Made by a program: the position numbers and the translations under genes. From contig NZ_JALPTB010000022.1 of NCBI RefSeq assembly GCF_023218075.1, positions 1 through 64,000 on the forward strand: a stretch of 64,000 nucleotides of DNA. Reading direction: 5' to 3'. Shown one piece after another: positions 49,736-61,666 of the stretch. A model generated the notes under the pieces. It saw only the letters and a program-made list of their open reading frames with translations. It did not search any database and was not told the origin of the DNA. Numbering within the stretch: the first letter of the stretch is position 1; each line of letters begins with the position of its first letter. This DNA is from Rhodococcus sp. HM1. Lineage in GTDB: Bacteria > Actinomycetota > Actinomycetes > Mycobacteriales > Mycobacteriaceae.

Positions 49736-50626
49736 GTGTCCACACTCACCGTCACCCGCGACTCGATCCGTCTCGAGGTCGTCGTCGAGGGGAATCCGCA
49801 CGGCCCGACGCTCGTGCTCGTGCACGGCTGGCCCGACACGCACGCGCTGTGGGACCGCGTCGTGCCGCTGCTCACCGACGAATTCCGCGTCGTGCGCTAC
49901 GACAACCGCGGTGCCGGAGCCTCGAGTATTCCGCCGCGGGTGCGGGACTACCGGCTCAGGGAACTGGTCCGGGATCTGAACGCGGTCGTCGACGCGGTCG
50001 GCGGGGGACCGGTGCACCTGCTCGGCCACGACTGGGGTGCGGTGGTGTGCTGGGAGGCGGTGTGCGAGCCCGGCGCGGCCGGCCGCATCGCCTCCTACAC
50101 CTCGGTGTCCGGACCGAACCTGGACCATCTGGGGTTGTGGATGCGCAGGAGCCTGCGCTCGGGCCGATTCGCCGGCCCGCTCGCCCAGGCCGTCGCGTCC
50201 GCGTACACGCTGGCGTTCCAGCTCCCCGGGGTGCCGGTCCCCGTCCTGCGGTGGGTGCTCGCCCCGAACTGGGCGCGTTTCGTCGGCCTGTTCGACCGCG
50301 CCGATCCGTCCGTCGTGTCGCCGGCGCCCACCCTCGCCGACGACATGGTGCACGGCCTGAAGCTCTACCGCGCCAACATCCGGCGTCGGCTGGACTCGCC
50401 GCGGGAGCGCGTCACCGACGTGCCCGTTCAGCTCGTGCTGGCCGGCCGCGACCGGGCGGTGCGGCCCGTGGGATACGAGGACACCGAACGGTGGGTGTCG
50501 AACCTGCACCGGGAACGGCTCGATGCGGGACACTGGTCGCCGCGGACCCACCCCGGCGAGCTGGCCCGCCTGACCGGGAACTTCGTCCGGCAGACGGCCG
50601 AGCGGGAGTCTCCGCGGCAAATTTGA
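49736..50626 (+). CDS. Alpha/beta hydrolase resembling the EphD hydrolase domain
   Basis: 296 aa. HGWPDTHALWD is the oxyanion-hole motif, YDNRGAGASS follows, and LLGHDWGAVVCWEA is a nucleophile elbow with Asp, the epoxide hydrolase or haloalkane dehalogenase type. The acid is probably in LAGRDRAV and the base in DAGHWSP. RIASYTSVSGPNLDH is close to the N-terminal hydrolase half of mycobacterial EphD, but here no reductase half follows. GGGAGG at 49725-49730 sets the GTG start. The gene is inserted between dciA and gyrB, which are neighbours in mycobacteria. Confidence 0.8.
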   Translation: MSTLTVTRDSIRLEVVVEGNPHGPTLVLVHGWPDTHALWDRVVPLLTDEFRVVRYDNRGAGASSIPPRVRDYRLRELVRDLNAVVDAVGGGPVHLLGHDWGAVVCWEAVCEPGAAGRIASYTSVSGPNLDHLGLWMRRSLRSGRFAGPLAQAVASAYTLAFQLPGVPVPVLRWVLAPNWARFVGLFDRADPSVVSPAPTLADDMVHGLKLYRANIRRRLDSPRERVTDVPVQLVLAGRDRAVRPVGYEDTERWVSNLHRERLDAGHWSPRTHPGELARLTGNFVRQTAERESPRQI

Positions 50627-50643: not shown

Positions 50644-52821
<2,178 letters not shown>

Positions 52822-52831
52822 TGCCGGTGTG

Positions 52832-52879
52832 ACGGCAGGGCACGAGTTGTGTTGCAAATCACAGCTTTTGCCCTGCCGT
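52832..52879 (+). terminator. gyrB terminator
   Basis: ACGGCAGGGCA (52832-52842) pairs with TGCCCTGCCGT (52869-52879), then TTTTCG. The 26-nt loop is long. It separates gyrB from the conservon; the rest of the 330-bp gap (to 53151) holds the conservon promoter region, where TAAGGT at 53025-53030 is a possible -10. Confidence 0.8.
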
Positions 52880-53151
52880 TTTCGCGTGTCGGTGGCGCAC
52901 GCAATAGCGCGGGCACATTACCGGTGAGTACTATCTGCTGCGATCGTGTGTTCGCGATTGTCGATCGGGGGACGGCGGTGCCGGGGGAAATGGAAAGTTC
53001 TTCCGTATTCCCTGTATGTCCCGCTAAGGTGCCCTCACCCAGGAACGCCTCATTCGACTGCTTCCACGCGGTGCTTCGCGCCCGGTCGTCGGATCGGGTC
53101 GGGTGGAGTGCAGTGCAGAGTCGTGATCGGGGTGGAAGGAGAGCTTGATCC

Positions 53152-56100
53152 ATGAGTGACGATTCGCCGCCCCGGCAGCGGTGGTGGAACATCGAGGGGT
53201 GGGGTCTTCGCTGGAAGGTCACTGCAGTACTCGCCATTCCGGTAACGGTGGCGATGGTGCTCGGTGGTCTGCGTATCCAGGAAGAGCTCACCAACGCTGT
53301 TCACTTCTCGCAGGCTGCCGATCAGGTCGCGCACGTCCCTGATCTCGTCGACTTCGGTACCGCGCTCGGTACCCTCGCGGGTACCACCGCGGCGGGTCTG
53401 AGCACGCCGGAAGAAGTCGCTCGACTCGACGAAACACTCGAGCAGGTCCGCACCGTCGCGCTGAATCCGGAGCTCGATCCGGTCGTCGCGGCGGACCTCA
53501 CCCGCGTGCTGGCGAGCGCCGAAGCACTCCGTGACCAGATGAAGGCCGGCCAGGTTCCGATCGCCGACCTGAATCAGCGCACCACCGAAGTGCGAAGCGA
53601 CATGTCGAACATCGTGAGCGCGATCGTCGACCCGATCGAGGACGAAGAGGTGCTGCTCGAGGGCACCCGCCTCGTCGACGCGTGGGCCACCCAGCGTTAC
53701 CTGTTCGACCAGGTGATGGGCATCGTCTCGATCCTGCGGGATCCCGATCAGCCCGGCACGCAGCTGGTTTCCGCGTCCGGTGCCGAGCTCGCCATGCTCG
53801 AGACGCTCGCGCGTTCCTACCCGCTGGCCGACGGCCAGATCGAGGAACTGCGCACCGCGGTGAAGACCCGCTCCGACATGGTCGACGCTGCCGGCGACGG
53901 TCCGCTGCCACTGTTGAACCTGCGCACCTCGATGATGCGAAGCCTCGAGATCTACGGGTCGCTGATCGAGCAGGCCACCGAGGGCATCACCAGCACCGTC
54001 GAAGAGCGTGCCGCGGAAACCCGCTCGGCCGCACTGCGCGACACCGCGATCGTTCTCGCGACGCTGCTCGCCGCTCTCGTGCTCGCGCTGCTCGTGTCGC
54101 GGTCCCTCGTCGGACCGATCCGCCGGCTGCGTTACGGCGCACTCAAGGTCGCGCGTCAGGAACTGCCCGAAGCCGTCGACCGCATCAAGCTCGGCGACAA
54201 CATCGAGGACATCGAGTTCACCCGCGTTCCGGTGCACACCACCGAGGAGATCGGCCAGCTCGCCCGCGCCGTCGACGACATGCACGGGCAGGCACTGCGT
54301 CTCGCCGGTGAGCAGGCGCACCTCCGCCTCCAGATCAACGAGATGTTCGAGACGCTGGCCCGGCGAAGCAAGTCGCTCGTCGAGCAGCAGCTCGGCCTCA
54401 TCGAACGACTCGAGTTCGAGGAGAAGGACCCGAGCCGACTCGAGAGCCTCTTCCGTCTGGACCACCTCGCGGCCCGCATGCGCCGCAACGGCGACAACCT
54501 TCTGATTCTCTCCGGTACGCGGGTGCGTCGCGGTCACTCCGCGCCCGTCCAGCTCGGCGACATCCTCCGCGCGGCCATGTCCGAAGTCGAGGACTACCAG
54601 CGCGTTCAGATCGGTTCGACGCCGGACGGTGCCCTCAGCGGCGCCGTCGCGACCGACATCGTCCACCTGCTCGCCGAGCTCGTCGACAACTCGCTGCGCG
54701 CGTCGCCGCCGGACAGCAACGTCACGTTCAGCTTCGCTCGCGCCGTCGACGGTGGCCTGCTCGTCGAGATCGCCGACCGCGGTATCGGTATCCCCGCCGA
54801 GGAACTCGAAGCGATCAACCACCGCCTGTCGCAGGGCGGCGAGGTCGGTCCCGACTCGGCCCGCCACATGGGTCTGTTCGTGGTGTCGCGGCTCGCGGAC
54901 CGGCACGGTCTCACCGTGCGGTTGCGTCCGACCTTCGACACCGCACGCAACCCCGGTATCACTGCCAGCGTGCACATCCCGGACGTTCTGCTCGTCTCGC
55001 CGCTCGCGCTGTCCCACACCGGTCCGCAGCCCTGGCGCGGCACCGACATGCCGAACGATGCCCAGGAGCAGCCGGCATTGCCGCGCGTGGAGCGTGAGGT
55101 GGCGCAGCTTCCGGCCGCGACACAGCAGGATCGGCCGGGTTACCAGTCGGGCGAGATCCCGGAGGTGCCGCGTCAGGCCCGTCCCGAGATCTCGGGCGAG
55201 CTTCCGGTCACACCGGTCCAGCCCGTGTCCCAGCCTCAGTCGCTGCAGAAGCCGGAGCAGAACGGTCATCAGCTGCCGGAACGCAACGGCCACCACCGGG
55301 CGCCGAACGGCCGGCCGGTGGACGGTCTGCCGCAGCGTGAGCCGGGCGCGACTCCGGGTCTGCCGCAGCGTGAGCCGGGTGCGATCCCGGGTCTTCCGCG
55401 TCGCCAGCCCGGCGCGACCCCCGGTCTGCCGGTCCCGCAGTCGCCGGCTACGCCTCCGGCCGCGTCGACGCCGACGCCCCGGGTGCAGCCCGACGCTGCC
55501 GCGGCTCTGGCCTCCGCGCTTCCGTCGCGTCAGCGGCCTGCGGTCGAGTCGGATTCCGAACGCACGGTGGTCACGCCGAGCGTCGACTCCGGTCCGGTGC
55601 AGCGTCCGCAGGACGCAGGTACGGCACAGCGTCCGCAGGACGCAGGTACGGCACAGCGTCCGCAGGACGCAGGTACGGCACAGCGTCCGCAGGACGCAGG
55701 TACGGCACAGCGTCCGCAGGAGGGTGGTCTGCCGCAGCGTCAGCCGGGTGCCACTCCGGGCCTGCCGCAGCGTCACGCCCAGCAGCCCGCGCCCCAGCCC
55801 TCGACGTCACAGCCCTCGACGTCACAGCCCTCGACGTCACAGCCGGGTGCCTCGCAGTCGCCTGCTCCGCAGCGTCAGTCGCCCCCGCCGGGCCTGCCGC
55901 AGCGTCAGCCCGGTGCCACGCCCGGTCTGACTCCCGCTCCGGCAGGTTCCGGTGTGAGTGCTCCGGCGCCTTCCGAGCCGATCGCGCCGGTTGCACCGCT
56001 CGCGCCGGTCGGTGGACCCGTCACGGGTCTTCCGCAGCGTCAGCCGGGCTCGACTCCGGGTCTGCCGCAGCGTCACGCCCAGCAGCCGGCGCGGCGGCCC

Positions 56101-56811
56101 GAACCGGTCGCCGAAGCTCCGGTCGAGACGGCAACCCCGGCGCAGGTCAACGGCCTGCCGCAGCGTCAGCCGGCCTCGACTCCCGGTCTGCCGCAGCGTC
56201 AGCCGGGTGCCACCCCGGGCCTGCCGCAGCGGCCCGCGCAGTCGGATGCACCGCAGCCGGCCGCGACCGTCGGAGCCGCAGCTTCCGCTGCGCCCGTGCA
56301 GACTGCGCCGAGCATCGCCAACGGCGACTCGGTTTCGCCGCACAGTGAGGCCAGCCAGGCCGCACGGCACCGGTACCGGACGAACTCGGCGAAGACCGCC
56401 TCGTTCTTCCAGCCTCGGGGCGAAACCGGAGCCCTCCGCCGCCAGGCCGCAGCACCGCCGATCTTCAACGACGTGATGTCCGACTGGCTCGTCGACCCGA
56501 CCAGCCTGCCGGAGGATCGGCGCAAGCGGGAATGGACGTCGGCGGCCGATGCAGGATGGGAAGCAGCGCAGCGCGCGGCCGAGGTTCCTGTGGAGGACCA
56601 CACCACTGCAGGTCTGCCTCGTCGCGCCCCCGGTCACCGTCTGGTGCCGGGTGCGGTCGAACCCGTGGCACCCGTGGAACGGCCGACGATCCGACGGCGC
56701 GATCCGGAAGCCATCCGGGCGAACCTCAGCCGTCACCAGCAGGGTGTCCGCAACGGCCGGTCTACGGTGAACGCGACCACACGTGAGAACAACGAACAGG
56801 GAGTTCGATGA
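53152..56811 (+). CDS. Conservon sensor kinase (CvnA type) with a long Pro/Gln repeat tail
   Basis: 1219 aa. A first helix (about 20-41) and a second (about 299-321) enclose an extracellular all-helical sensor region of the nitrate/nitrite-sensing type. A HAMP-like segment follows, then [19 protein letters not shown] (candidate phospho-acceptor His, about 440) and a GHKL ATPase ([43 protein letters not shown]). From about 640 the chain is a disordered tail with about a dozen GLPQR-type 11-residue repeats and a 9-residue repeat (QRPQDAGTA). It ends in a conserved segment (about 1105-1219) starting [21 protein letters not shown] precedes the ATG. First gene of a five-gene unit placed between gyrB and gyrA. 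Confidence 0.85.
55600..55722 (+). repeat. 27-bp tandem repeat in the kinase tail
   Basis: Four identical 27-bp units (55600-55626, 55627-55653, 55654-55680, 55681-55707) and a 15-bp partial one. Each encodes QRPQDAGTA. Exact DNA identity suggests recent expansion and variation between strains. A shorter 18-bp repeat (STSQPS) lies near 55801-55845. Confidence 0.93.
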
Positions 56812-57224
56812 ATATTGACCACGGATCCGATGTAACTCGTCCTTTGGACTGGTTGGTATCGAACTTCGCGCGCGAGGTTCCCGGTGTTTCCCACGCCGTG
56901 CTCGTGTCCGCCGACGGCTTGCTCATGGCCGCCAGCGCACACCTTCCGGTCGACCGCGCCGAGCAGCTCGCTGCGGTGACGTCCGGTCTCGCCAGCCTGT
57001 CCAACGGTGTTTCGCAGCTCTTCGACGGCGGCGGCGTGCTGCAGTCCGTCGTGGAGATGCAGCACGGTTACCTGCTGCTCATGAGCGTCGGCGACGGCTC
57101 TCACCTGGCCGCCCTGACCGCCTCGGAATGCGACATCGGACAGGTCGGTTACGAGATGGCACTCCTGGTCGACCGCGTGGGAGCGTCGGTCGAGGCGACC
57201 CCGCGGGTCGGCCAGGGGTCCTGA
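56808..57224 (+). CDS. Roadblock/LC7 protein (CvnB type)
   Basis: 138 aa. [31 protein letters not shown] and the later [17 protein letters not shown] form the roadblock fold. In conservons this protein pairs with the small GTPase and acts as its regulator. Its ATG overlaps the kinase stop (ATGA). Confidence 0.9.
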
Positions 57225-57231
57225 CGTCGAG

Positions 57232-57612
57232 GTGGCCATGGAATCGCGCAAACCTGAGTCGGTGCCGGACCAACCCAGTCTGGTCCGCCCGTACTCGCTG
57301 ACTTCGGGGCGAACGAACCCCGCAGTCGAACTGGCGTTGGAGGCGTTGATCCAGGCGATCCCGGGCACCGACGATCGGGCCCGGGACCTGGACAACATCA
57401 ACGCCACCATTTTGGAGTTGTGCAAGGAGTCCCCGTCGGTAGCCGAGATCGCTGCTCGGGTGGGTGTGCCAATCGGGGTGGCACGCGTCCTCGTCGCGGA
57501 TCTCGTCGAGGCCGGACACGTCCAGATCTTGGCCACGCTCAAAGACGATTCGAGCGACGCGGAGCGTCGTGAGCTGATTGAAAGGGTCCTCAGTGGACTT
57601 CGCGAACTCTAA
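57232..57612 (+). CDS. DUF742 protein (CvnC type)
   Basis: 126 aa. LVRPYSLTSGRTNP is the DUF742 opening, and LCKESPSVAEIAARVGVPIGVARVLVADLVEAGHV looks like a winged helix. In conservons it belongs to the membrane-linked complex. GTG 57232 or ATG 57238 are possible starts. Its 3' end overlaps the GTPase gene by 20 bp. Confidence 0.88.
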   Translation: MAMESRKPESVPDQPSLVRPYSLTSGRTNPAVELALEALIQAIPGTDDRARDLDNINATILELCKESPSVAEIAARVGVPIGVARVLVADLVEAGHVQILATLKDDSSDAERRELIERVLSGLREL

Positions 57613-58180
57613 CGACCCCAAGCGGGTGACCTCGACCAAAATCGTGATCGCCGGCGGCTTCGGTGTCGGAAAGACCACGTTGGTGGGGGCAGTGTCGGAG
57701 ATCGTCCCGCTGCGCACGGAAGCCTTGGTGACCAACGCCAGCGACGGCGTGGACAACTTGAGCGCTACGCCCCAGAAGGCCACGACGACCGTCGCCATGG
57801 ACTTCGGTCGTATCAGCCTGGCCGAGGATCTCGTGCTGTACCTGTTCGGTACGCCGGGACAGCATCGGTTCTGGTTCATGTGGGACGACCTCATCCGCGG
57901 TGCCATCGGGGCGATCGTGCTGATCGACACCCGTCGCCTGGACGAGAGCTTCGCCGCCGTCGACTTCTTCGAGGCGCGGAACCTCCCGTTCATCGTCGCG
58001 ATCAACGAGTTCGACGATGCGCCTCGTTACCCCGTGGAGGACATCCGGCAGGCGCTGGCCGTCTCGGCGGAGGTCCCGATCGTCTCGATCGACGCCCGGG
58101 CCCGCGAATCGGCGAAGTCCGCTCTGGTGACCGTCACCGAATATGCACTGAGGAAGTTGCACCAGCCGGTGGCCCGGTAG
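57593..58180 (+). CDS. Small Ras-like GTPase (CvnD type)
   Basis: 195 aa. G1 is GGFGVGKTTLVGA (about residue 20), G3 is LFGTPGQHRF and G4 is NEFD instead of NKxD, as usual for this family. The switch I region carries TTVAMDFGRI. GTG 57593 has GAAAGG before it and aligns with the family; TTG 57578 would add five residues. It probably carries the conservon signal in its GTP form. Confidence 0.9.
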   Translation: MDFANSNDPKRVTSTKIVIAGGFGVGKTTLVGAVSEIVPLRTEALVTNASDGVDNLSATPQKATTTVAMDFGRISLAEDLVLYLFGTPGQHRFWFMWDDLIRGAIGAIVLIDTRRLDESFAAVDFFEARNLPFIVAINEFDDAPRYPVEDIRQALAVSAEVPIVSIDARARESAKSALVTVTEYALRKLHQPVAR

Positions 58181-58989
58181 TGGACGCCGACATCCAGCTC
58201 TTCTCGATGGGGGCATGGGTGGTGGTCCTGGCGTTCGCGACGTCGTCGATCGGTCTGCTGGTCGGCCTCGTGAGCGCCAGGAAGGCACGATTCGCCACCA
58301 CCGATCGGCAAGGGCTGTTGTGGATGCTGCTGGCGGCCGCGTGCGCGGGGGGAGTGGGGACGTGGCTCGCCCTGCTTCTCGCCGTCGCGGGATTCGGGGT
58401 CACCGACAGCATCGTGCGCCACGATCTGGTGACCATCGCGTTCTCGCTGGCGGTGGCGCTGGTGAGCTCGTTCGTCGCGCTGGTCGTCTCGATCAGCCGC
58501 GACGGGCATTCACCCGGCCGGTTGCTCGCCGGTGGGGTGCTGTTCGGCGCCGGGATCTGCGTGGTGTTCCTGTCCCTCATGTGGTCCGTGCGGCTGCAGG
58601 GCACGTTCACCTTCGACACCCCGTTCGTCATCGCGACCGCGGCGGTGTCGCTGGTCGTGGCGTTCTCCTTCCTGTGGCTCGTGGAGGTCGCGGACCGCAC
58701 GCTCCTGCGCATCTGTGGAAGTGTCGTGACGGGCGCGGCCGTCCTCGGTGTCTACTTCCTCGGGATGGCGTCGGTGGAGGTGACACCGGACTCCTCGATC
58801 GCGATGCCCGGTGGGATCGAGCTCTTCTCGGTGTTGTTCGCGGTGTTCGTCGTGGGCACGGTGGTCATCACCCTGCCCATCGTGCTGACCCTCATGGACC
58901 CGGATCGTGTTGCGGCGCAACTCGAACGGGAAGTCGATCAGTGGGTCGCCGAACAGGGCGGAAACGACGAGGGCGCGCGGCTCGGTTAG
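58180..58989 (+). CDS. MHYT-like membrane protein lacking the motif histidines
   Basis: 269 aa with about seven membrane helices and a short charged C-terminal tail. Helix order and flanks match MHYT sensor domains of actinobacteria (opening FSMGAWVVVLAFATSSIG; then GGVGTWLALLLAVAGFGV where MHYT proteins have GGIGIWxMHFxxM). The three MH(Y/F)xxM motifs are replaced (LALLLA, VFLSLM, VYFLGM), so the proposed metal or gas ligands are gone. The GTG overlaps the GTPase stop by one base (TAGTG), so it belongs to the conservon operon. The downstream spacer has a weak hairpin (GAAGGA/TCCTTC, 59041-59060) before the gyrA promoter region. Confidence 0.65.
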   Translation: MDADIQLFSMGAWVVVLAFATSSIGLLVGLVSARKARFATTDRQGLLWMLLAAACAGGVGTWLALLLAVAGFGVTDSIVRHDLVTIAFSLAVALVSSFVALVVSISRDGHSPGRLLAGGVLFGAGICVVFLSLMWSVRLQGTFTFDTPFVIATAAVSLVVAFSFLWLVEVADRTLLRICGSVVTGAAVLGVYFLGMASVEVTPDSSIAMPGGIELFSVLFAVFVVGTVVITLPIVLTLMDPDRVAAQLEREVDQWVAEQGGNDEGARLG

Positions 58990-59161
58990 ACCGGTCCCGG
59001 CCCTCCCCGCCGGCACGACCGTCCTGTGTGCAACGTGATGGAAGGAAAGTGCCGTCCTTCTGGGTGTTCGCTGACCTGCACCTATAGACTCGGGTGGTTG
59101 CGAGACGTCCACCGGGCGACGGTTCCGGGTAGACGTTCGAGCCGAGTAGAAGAAGGAGCTC

Positions 59162-61666
59162 ATGACCGACACCACGTTGCCGCCGGAGGGGCCGGGGCAC
59201 GACCGCATCGAGCCCGTCGACATCCAGCAGGAGATGCAGAGCAGCTACATCGATTACGCGATGAGCGTGATCGTGGGCCGCGCGCTGCCCGATGTGCGCG
59301 ACGGCCTCAAGCCGGTGCATCGCCGCGTCCTGTACGCCATGTACGACAACGGTTTCCGCCCGGACCGCGGTTACGTGAAGTCGGCCCGCGCCGTTGCCGA
59401 GACGATGGGCAACTACCACCCGCACGGCGACTCCTCCATCTACGACGCGCTCGTGCGTCTCGCCCAGCCGTGGTCGATGCGGTACCCGCTCGTCGACGGT
59501 CAGGGCAACTTCGGTTCCCCCGGCAACGACGGTGCCGCCGCGATGCGGTACACCGAGTGCCGCCTCACGCCGCTCGCGATGGAGATGCTGCGCGAAATCG
59601 ACCACGAGACGGTCGATTTCCAGCCGAACTACGACGGCCGCACGCAGGAACCGACGGTTCTCCCCAGCCGTATCCCCAACCTGTTGATCAACGGGTCCAA
59701 CGGCATCGCCGTCGGTATGGCGACGAACATTCCGCCGCACAACCTCAACGAGGTCGCCGAGGCGATCTACTGGGCGCTCGAGAACTTCGAGGCGGACGAG
59801 CAGACCACACTCGCGGCCGTGATGGAACGCATCAAGGGCCCGGACTTCCCCACGGCGGGTCTGATCGTGGGCAGCCAGGGCATCCACGACGCGTACACCA
59901 CCGGTCGCGGTTCGGTGCGGATGCGCGCGGTCGTCGAGATCGAGGAGGACGCCAAGGGGCGCACCACGATCGTCGTCACCGAACTGCCGTACCAGGTGAA
60001 CCCGGACAACCTGATCACGTCCATCGCGACGCAGGTCCGGGACGGCAAGATCGCCGGCATCTCCGAGATCCACGACGAGTCCTCCGATCGCGTCGGTATG
60101 CGCATCGTGATCACGGTCCGCCGCGACGCGGTCGCGAAGGTCGTGCTCAACAACCTGTACAAGCACACGCAGCTGCAGACCAGCTTCGGCTGCAACATGC
60201 TCTCGATCGTCGACGGGGTGCCGCGCACACTGCGCCTCGACCAGATGATCCGGTACTACGTCAACCACCAGATCGAGGTCATCGTCCGCAGGACCCGGTA
60301 CCTGCTGCGCAAGGCCGAGGAACGTGCCCACATCCTGCGCGGCCTGGTCAAGGCGCTCGATGCGCTCGACGAGGTCATCGCCCTCATCCGTCGTTCGCAG
60401 ACGGTCGACATCGCCCGCACGGGCCTGATGGACCTGCTCACAGTCGACGAGATCCAGGCCGACGCGATCCTCGCGATGCAGTTGCGCCGCCTCGCCGCCC
60501 TCGAGCGTCAGAAGATCATCGACGAACTGGCCGAGATCGAGCGCGAGATCGACGACTACAAGGACATCCTGGCGAAGCCGGAACGGCAGCGCGCGATCGT
60601 CCGTGACGAGCTGAAGGAAGTCGTCGACAAGTACGGCGACGAGCGGCGCACCAAGATCATCGCGTCCGACGGCGAGGTGTCCGACGAGGATCTCATCGCC
60701 CGCGAGGACGTCGTCGTCACGATCACCGAGACCGGCTACGCCAAGCGGACGAAGACCGATCTGTACCGGTCGCAGAAGCGCGGCGGCAAGGGTGTCAAGG
60801 GCGCCGAGCTCAAGCAGGACGACATCGTGAAGAACTTCTTCGTGACGTCGACGCACGACTGGCTGCTGTTCTTCACCACCAAGGGCCGCGTCTACCGGGC
60901 CAAGGCGTACGAGCTGCCCGAGGCCAACCGCACCGCGCGCGGCCAGCACGTCGCGAACCTGCTGGCGTTCCAGCCGGACGAGCGGATCCAGGGCGTGATC
61001 CGGATCAAGTCGTACGAGGATGCGCCGTACCTGGTGCTCGCCACCCGCAACGGCCTGGTCAAGAAGTCGCGGCTCGCGGACTTCGACTCCAACCGGTCCG
61101 GCGGCATCGTCGCGATCAACCTGCGCGACGAGGACGAACTCGTCGGTGCGGTGCTGTGCTCCGCCGACGACGACCTGCTGCTCGTGTCGGAGCAGGGCCA
61201 GTCGATCCGGTTCTCGGCGACGGACGAGGCGCTGCGGCCGATGGGCCGCGCGACGTCCGGTGTGCAGGGCATGCGGTTCAACGGCGACGACAAGCTGCTG
61301 TCCCTCAACGTGGTCCGCGAGGGAACGTATCTGCTGGTCGCGACGTCCGGTGGCTACTCCAAGCGCACGCCGATGGAGGACTACCCGGTCCAGGGCCGTG
61401 GCGGTAAGGGTGTCTTGACGATCCAGTACGACCGCAAGCGTGGCACCCTGGTCGGAGCGCTCATCGTGGACGATGACGACGAGCTCTACGCGATCACCTC
61501 CGGTGGTGGGGTCATCCGTACCGCCGCCAAGCAGGTGCGCAAGGCCGGCCGCCAGACGAAGGGCGTCCGGTTGATGAACCTGGCCGAGGGCGACACGTTG
61601 CTGGCGATCGCACGCAACGCCGATGAGCCCGAGGAGGGCGCCACATCAGATGCGAAGGAGTCGTAA
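59162..61666 (+). CDS. gyrA: DNA gyrase subunit A
   Basis: 834 aa. The catalytic Tyr130 lies in [10 protein letters not shown]. The quinolone region reads [14 protein letters not shown], with Ser91 and Asp95 in the positions of E. coli Ser83 and Asp87. The GyrA box QKRGGKG, needed for DNA wrapping, is near residue 539. The C-terminal beta-pinwheel is complete. The AAGAAGGAG ribosome site precedes the ATG. TATAGA at 59083-59088 may be the -10 of its own promoter after the conservon. Confidence 0.98.

Follow-up and report, generated by a model that had tools for sequence, protein, structure and literature searches.

Layout of the locus

The window analysed here is a stretch of 64,000 nt from Rhodococcus sp. 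HM1. In it the interval from the end of gyrB (52821) to the start of gyrA (59162) measures 6,340 bp and is filled by a conservon and by a gene for a membrane protein of the MHYT family, which we call gene E. Conservons are actinobacterial G-protein systems; the accessible text of PMC13343842 describes P450 or GAF accessories in some of them, alongside kinases without an outer sensor. Judged by its sequence, the block is a full conservon, with CvnA, CvnB, CvnC and CvnD in order. It is a known kind of signalling unit in a real, unusual and mobile placement. We think it probable that in the soil bacterium Rhodococcus this G-protein system forms a cassette which occupies the space between gyrB and gyrA. 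Its distribution in the family is patchy, a block upstream of gyrA is linked to it, and in two species the breakpoints of its exchange fall within gyrA. The features of the locus are the following.

50701..52821, + strand: gyrB, left flank; Pfam DNA_gyraseB, Toprim and HATPase_c; start codon not settled
52833..52878, + strand: hairpin after gyrB and upstream of cvnA, from its fold and from pairing across loci
52848-52863, + strand: CRP-like palindrome TGTGTTGCAAATCACA in the hairpin, one mismatch to TGTGA-N6-TCACA
52998..53061, + strand: block upstream of cvnA conserved in g1, the genus group of the window; candidate promoter region (7 g1 loci aligned)
53152..56811, + strand: cvnA, sensor histidine-kinase-like; Pfam HAMP and HATPase_c; two transmembrane segments
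56808..57224, + strand: cvnB, roadblock/LC7 protein; Pfam Robl_LC7
57232..57612, + strand: cvnC, DUF742 protein; Pfam DUF742; start GTG 57232 or ATG 57238
57593..58180, + strand: cvnD, Ras-like small GTPase; Pfam ATP_bind_1 and a sub-threshold GTP_EFTU match; motifs GGFGVGKT, FGTPGQ and NEFD
58180..58989, + strand: gene E, MHYT-family membrane protein (accessory); Pfam MHYT
59072..59090, + strand: conserved core TGACCTGCACCTATAGACT, putative gyrA promoter
59162..61666, + strand: gyrA, right flank; in genomes G187 and G202 the exchange of the cassette included its 5' end

The junctions overlap between cvnA and cvnB (ATGA), between cvnC and cvnD (GTG 57593) and, by one base, between cvnD and gene E (TAGTG, GTG 58180). 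From cvnB to cvnC there is a gap of 7 bp with the GTG start and of 13 bp with the ATG start. The original prediction, made from the sequence of the window, had described five genes in this order and on this strand within 53152-58989, in a tight operon which separates gyrB from gyrA by about 6.3 kb. The Pfam matches, the overlapping or nearly touching junctions and the measured interval agree with it. The fifth gene does code for a membrane protein, as predicted; its MHYT-family membership had been missed.

CvnA has the features of its class: transmembrane segments, HAMP, HATPase, a conserved histidine and an LPxR tail. Its two hydrophobic segments, a count which rests on hydropathy only, lie near residues 22-40 and 298-316 and enclose an outer segment of about 257 aa. 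No Pfam match was found in residues 1-315; the same scan does detect NIT in another conservon type. His438 is invariant in all 69 CvnA rows aligned and would correspond to H183 of CvnA8. The tail contains 14 LPxR motifs in the window, 12-16 in g1 and 3-8 in the ten other linked loci counted; PMC4316618 gives LPxR in this C-terminal part of CvnA as a conservon feature. Aligned with 17 other linked copies, CvnD shows 82-100% identity, and a sequence search of the PDB with its profile gave no match at 1e-6. The conservons of Streptomyces share the four core genes, the invariant kinase histidine and LPxR in the CvnA tail (available text of PMC13343842 and PMC4316618). They differ in having CvnE P450 and CvnF GAF proteins, whereas here we find an MHYT accessory, an outer kinase segment without Pfam match and a location at gyrase.

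A profile scan of the genome found cvnB to be its sole Robl_LC7 match. Contig C32 carries another DUF742 gene (L139, G000:C32, 1349-1981), without a cvnA, cvnB or cvnD match within the surrounding 6 kb. Its product is extended by about 95 aa at the N-terminus, as are those of the lone DUF742 genes L140-L144, and no cvnA, cvnB or cvnD match is found near any of them in the six genomes examined, which belong to genera g1 and g70. Upstream of gyrB lie dnaA, dnaN, recF, dciA and an alpha/beta-hydrolase gene; the last one, at 49736-50626, stands between dciA and gyrB.

Distribution in the family

We have compared a sample of 121 genomes of the family, which represent 31 genera; the numbers of linked cases and of unlinked DUF742 genes are hand counts. 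The order gyrB-conservon-gyrA is present in 19 genomes, all of them within four genera (26 genomes). It is found in 7/7 genomes of g1, the window's own genus, 6/6 of g69, 4/6 of g70 and 2/7 of g57. None of the 95 genomes of the other 27 genera has it, though they contain 70 DUF742 genes over the cut-off. The original prediction had reasoned that a block fixed in all related genera would be ancestral and of little note; the restriction to four genera shows that it is not so fixed. In 18 genomes gyrA is preceded, at a distance of a few kb, by a DUF742 gene of the same orientation. In the nineteenth, G193, gyrB and the DUF742 gene are on one contig, cvnD and gyrA on another. The conservon and both gyrase genes share a single contig in 17 of the 19 linked genomes. 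A search of a named collection gave, among its best 80 loci, six linked ones, all from Rhodococcus: R. coprophilus, Rhodococcus sp. 105337, a Rhodococcus metagenome-assembled genome, R. opacus, R. wratislaviensis and R. triatomae. The other 74 have no gyrase match in the adjoining DNA, some stretches of which are short.

In two genera, g70 and g57, some species have the cassette and others lack it cleanly. Such close relatives form natural pairs, with and without the conservon and a dedicated gyrA promoter at the gyrase locus; since they differ cleanly in the cassette, signalling, gyrase expression and supercoiling could be compared between them. Where the block is absent, 28-230 bp separate the two gyrase genes in 26 compared regions, and 461 bp in G142.

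The separation of gyrB and gyrA is not special in itself, since other genera have it too: the two matches are 1.5-25 kb apart in 7/7 genomes of g52, 5/7 of g53 (a sixth is split over contigs) and 4/5 of g61 (hand count), and these genomes have no DUF742 match over the cut-off. A different peculiarity of gyrA is that its match falls into two parts inside a single open frame of about 1000-1340 codons in G034, G043, G052, G088, G121, G143, G156, G173 and G189. An intein would give such a pattern.

Exchange of the cassette between genera

In the conservon tree a branch with support 77 separates the 19 linked rows from all others. A second conservon tree needs two changes of the linked state and is compatible with one origin. 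The gyrase tree needs at least five; its bootstrap is not settled, its deep branches are unresolved and G193, of genus g69, groups in it with G195 and G208, of genus g70.

The history of the cassette can be followed in G187 and G202, two species of g57. Their gyrase groups with their own genus (100/99) and their conservon is nested in g69 (100/99). The gyrB gene of G187 is 94-100% identical to that of the conservon-free G171, as against 76-98% to that of G162, a g69 genome. Its gyrA starts 97% like G162 and 85% like G171, and then turns. At the informative sites of gyrA, G187 is donor-like from 12 to 120 (7/7) and recipient-like from 129 (25/26); G202 is donor-like from 12 to 51 (6/6) and recipient-like from 120 (27/27). 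The last ten informative sites (787-806) may be alignment effects, and without them the recipient-like counts are 15/16 for G187 and 17/17 for G202. There is thus a single switch from donor to recipient in both species. Together with a native gyrB, this is the pattern expected of homologous recombination with gyrase arms. On the evidence of these alignments, G187 and G202 have imported the cassette and the first 51-120 bp of gyrA in this way. The arrangement has then spread by recombination at least once, a process which the original prediction had missed. An essential gene pair serves here as homology arms for the exchange of an entire signalling operon. The placement may persist largely because gyrB and gyrA are good arms for such whole-block exchange.

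A different history is possible, though we are inclined to doubt it: the order gyrB-conservon-gyrA would be ancestral and would have been lost several times, through exchange with a short interval or deletion to it, instead of being gained once and spread. The genome G142 would fit such a history. It lies near the root of the gyrase tree, outside the other rows, and keeps the gyrA block in its 461-bp gap; its conservon, which belongs to the window's clade and shares the hairpin, with a palindrome free of mismatches, is located elsewhere in the genome. The number of changes required by the gyrase tree also fits, but the poor resolution of that tree reduces its weight. Short intervals prevail in the remaining regions compared, and G187 and G202 display a gain through import, not retention.

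Control elements

The gap between gyrB and cvnA has a stable fold: for 52822-52900 the z score is -4.62 and none of 200 shuffled sequences is equally stable. The gap between gene E and gyrA (58990-59068) has a z score of +0.08, with no structure beyond that of its shuffles. The original prediction had proposed a terminator on each side of the conservon and an insulated gyrase supply. The left gap is indeed terminator-like and the conservon looks insulated on this side; a terminator on the right was rejected, its fold being no better than that of shuffled sequence. A simple terminator scan gave four sites, with 3.0 expected, none of them in the two gaps. A scan for the sigma-70 consensus found no promoter.

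The arms of the left hairpin vary between lineages yet keep their pairing. In 15 loci, 228 of 285 pair cells are paired in register, and at most 148 when the arms are slid. For the flanking arms of 13 loci we find 136 of 182 paired, against 83 +/- 8 and a maximum of 111 in 2000 deals. RNAalifold on a MAFFT alignment gave a weak consensus, with the MAFFT gaps falling in the arms; the ungapped, centred pair count was made after that result.

At the centre of the hairpin there is a TGTGA-N6-TCACA palindrome, with one mismatch at most, in 6/7 loci of g1, 5/5 of g69 and 2/2 of g57; it is exact in the conservon of G142. None of 72 upstream rows of other conservons has it with up to one mismatch (hand count). 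This survey excludes G193 and G179, its gene starts were set by homology (that of L122 is wrong) and some genomes were entered twice. In the window alone the match is not beyond chance. The genome contains 12 exact TGTGA-N6-TCACA sites, as compared with one for the reversed pattern. We take this sequence to be the CRP/GlxR consensus, and a regulator of this kind may bind the hairpin region.

Upstream of gyrA, the block TGACCTGCACCTATAGACT occurs without mismatch in the window and also in 14 of the 18 linked loci compared; three others have one mismatch and G187 has a one-base insertion. G142 carries the block with one mismatch, and the other 26 regions without cassette have at least five mismatches. 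As far as these sequences go, the block travels with the cassette. Its TATAGACT element, its position and its conservation suggest that it is the gyrA promoter, and the promoter candidate given in the original prediction is well supported by this conservation across linked loci. With a promoter of its own, gyrA could be transcribed without readthrough from the conservon, and the supply of gyrase would not have to rely on it.

The MHYT-family protein

Protein E matches Pfam MHYT with 25.6 bits (curated cut-off 21), and the same match is found in 37 of its 38 relatives. Its model has eight helices, with a mean pLDDT of 93.1. A search of the PDB with the profile of protein E gave one weak match, METTL21A (E 0.013), which we judge to be due to chance. 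According to the accessible part of PMC11347149, MHYT domains are proposed to bind copper via their motif residues, and the sensing of CO by CoxC depends on copper. Protein E shares the Pfam family with such CoxC-type proteins, but it is not fused to an output domain and it has none of the three motif histidines: the motif positions read ALLLAV, VFLSLM and VYFLGM, whereas MHYT-type motifs have Met/His ligands in three transmembrane segments. Since these histidines are gone, the window copy is probably no CoxC-like copper sensor; from its sequence it would probably be structural or sense something else.

The copy adjacent to cvnD has zero or one of the three motif histidines in g1 and g69. In g70 it has 0, 2 or 3 of them, in three of four copies examined. 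In g1 there are also eight second or third copies in tandem, and these keep all three. The window genome has just a degenerate first copy at the gyrase locus. The six other g1 genomes (L090-L095) have one or two extra tandem MHYT genes between cvnD and gyrA, with intact motifs.

It is rather unlikely, in our opinion, that the MHYT-family gene is a passenger outside the signalling unit. Its absence from 6 of the 19 linked genomes and the loss of the motif histidines in the window would suit a passenger, but the gene overlaps cvnD by one base and MHYT genes are also found directly after cvnD in conservons well away from the gyrase locus. All three motif histidines are present in 11 of 18 aligned MHYT sequences from conservons outside that locus. 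MHYT proteins may be a third type of conservon accessory, beside P450 and GAF. In the open-licence literature searched we found no report of MHYT as an accessory type or of operon exchange by gyrase arms; either may have been published elsewhere.

Proposed signal path and possible relation to gyrase

The kinase, GTPase-activating and nucleotide exchange roles of conservon proteins are described in the available parts of PMC13343842, PMC13015309 and PMC9769811. In the system studied here CvnA would sense an outside cue and autophosphorylate on His438. Its phosphorylation would shift the balance between CvnB, as GTPase activator, and CvnC, as exchange factor; CvnD would change between its GDP and GTP forms and then bind an effector. 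The MHYT-family protein would act as a membrane accessory. The conservon would be under its own upstream control region, and gyrA under its own promoter.

Several observations weigh against this reading of the cassette. The palindrome is absent from all five linked rows of g70 type and is imperfect in the window. The import was examined in two species only, and the other genera fit a single old gain followed by losses equally well. The accessory accompanies a CvnA that has an outer segment, contrary to the pattern given for CvnE and CvnF in the available text of PMC13343842.

Few conservons have known targets. The mfp conservon of mycobacteria has gyrase as its output, which it reaches through MfpA (PMC13015309 and PMC9769811, in the parts available), and mfpA is reported only in Mycobacteriaceae in the accessible text of PMC13015309. 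This conservon is the closest studied relative of the window system, which the original prediction had missed. Its genes, MfpE-D-C-B-A, include a homologous kinase, roadblock protein, DUF742 protein and GTPase in the same order; it is also of single-copy type, and both systems fall inside one starred clade of 56 rows. However, within it they form separate starred clades. The fifth gene of mfp codes for a pentapeptide protein, whereas an MHYT gene follows cvnD in the window, and in the six g2 genomes sampled mfp lies outside the gyrB-gyrA interval. The trees, which place the window conservon outside the mfp clade, and the lack of an adjoining mfpA reject it as an mfp ortholog.

Closer relatives are found in an unlinked group from Nocardia, Aldersonia and Antrihabitans (L122, L123, L157, L160, L114, L168 and L156). 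They belong to the same 30-row clade (support 100/100), and the CvnA of L122 has 16 LPxR motifs. They differ in having no gyrase gene in the adjoining DNA compared and no MHYT gene detected with the window protein as query.

The genome has two MfpA-like genes, L266 and L267 (G000:C203:155610-156143 and C181:2451-2990), on contigs away from the conservon; their identity to a mycobacterial-type MfpA is 57% and 48%. Of the 22 genomes searched from the four genera, 17 have matches with 50-62% identity over 170 aa or more, none of them adjoining the linked conservon. G165, G181, G209 and G221, of g1, have no MfpA-like match and G196 has one of only 31%; all five carry the conservon. G127, G195 and G208 have MfpA-like genes without a conservon at the gyrase locus. 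We have rejected an MfpA-like protein as obligatory effector, since its presence does not track the conservon.

These data bear on a possible function at gyrase. The conservon could be a dedicated gyrase regulator, whose placement reflects its function: CvnD-GTP would act directly or via a pentapeptide-repeat protein, as MfpB does via MfpA. We hold this to be a fair hypothesis, though an unlikely one. The mfp precedent, the placement kept across four genera and the two MfpA-like genes of the window genome speak for it, as does G147, where the cvnD of a conservon from the same 30-row clade is followed, after about 1.5 kb, by an MfpA-like gene. On the other hand, the window conservon lies outside the mfp clade, the MfpA-like genes are missing from four of seven g1 genomes (and weak in a fifth) which all have the conservon, and three genomes have them despite lacking a conservon at gyrase. 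Furthermore no gyrase gene adjoins the nearest relatives, those of Nocardia and Aldersonia, in the stretches compared, and the putative gyrA promoter would separate gyrA expression from the conservon. It would be equally surprising if the whole system were a membrane-fed GTPase switch that tunes gyrase in Rhodococcus, a link between G proteins and gyrase older than MfpA, exchanged as one allele with the gyrA promoter and 5' end. If this were true, one-allele exchange would keep the signal input matched to gyrA expression. The cassette, as a conservon exchanged through its gyrase flanks, remains our preferred reading.

The conservon of G147 (L265, 2418-5847, minus strand) belongs to the window clade and has a lipoprotein-like open reading frame between cvnD and its MfpA-like gene. 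In 7 of 9 loci examined the MfpA-like gene shares a neighbour which may be read as FolD-like.

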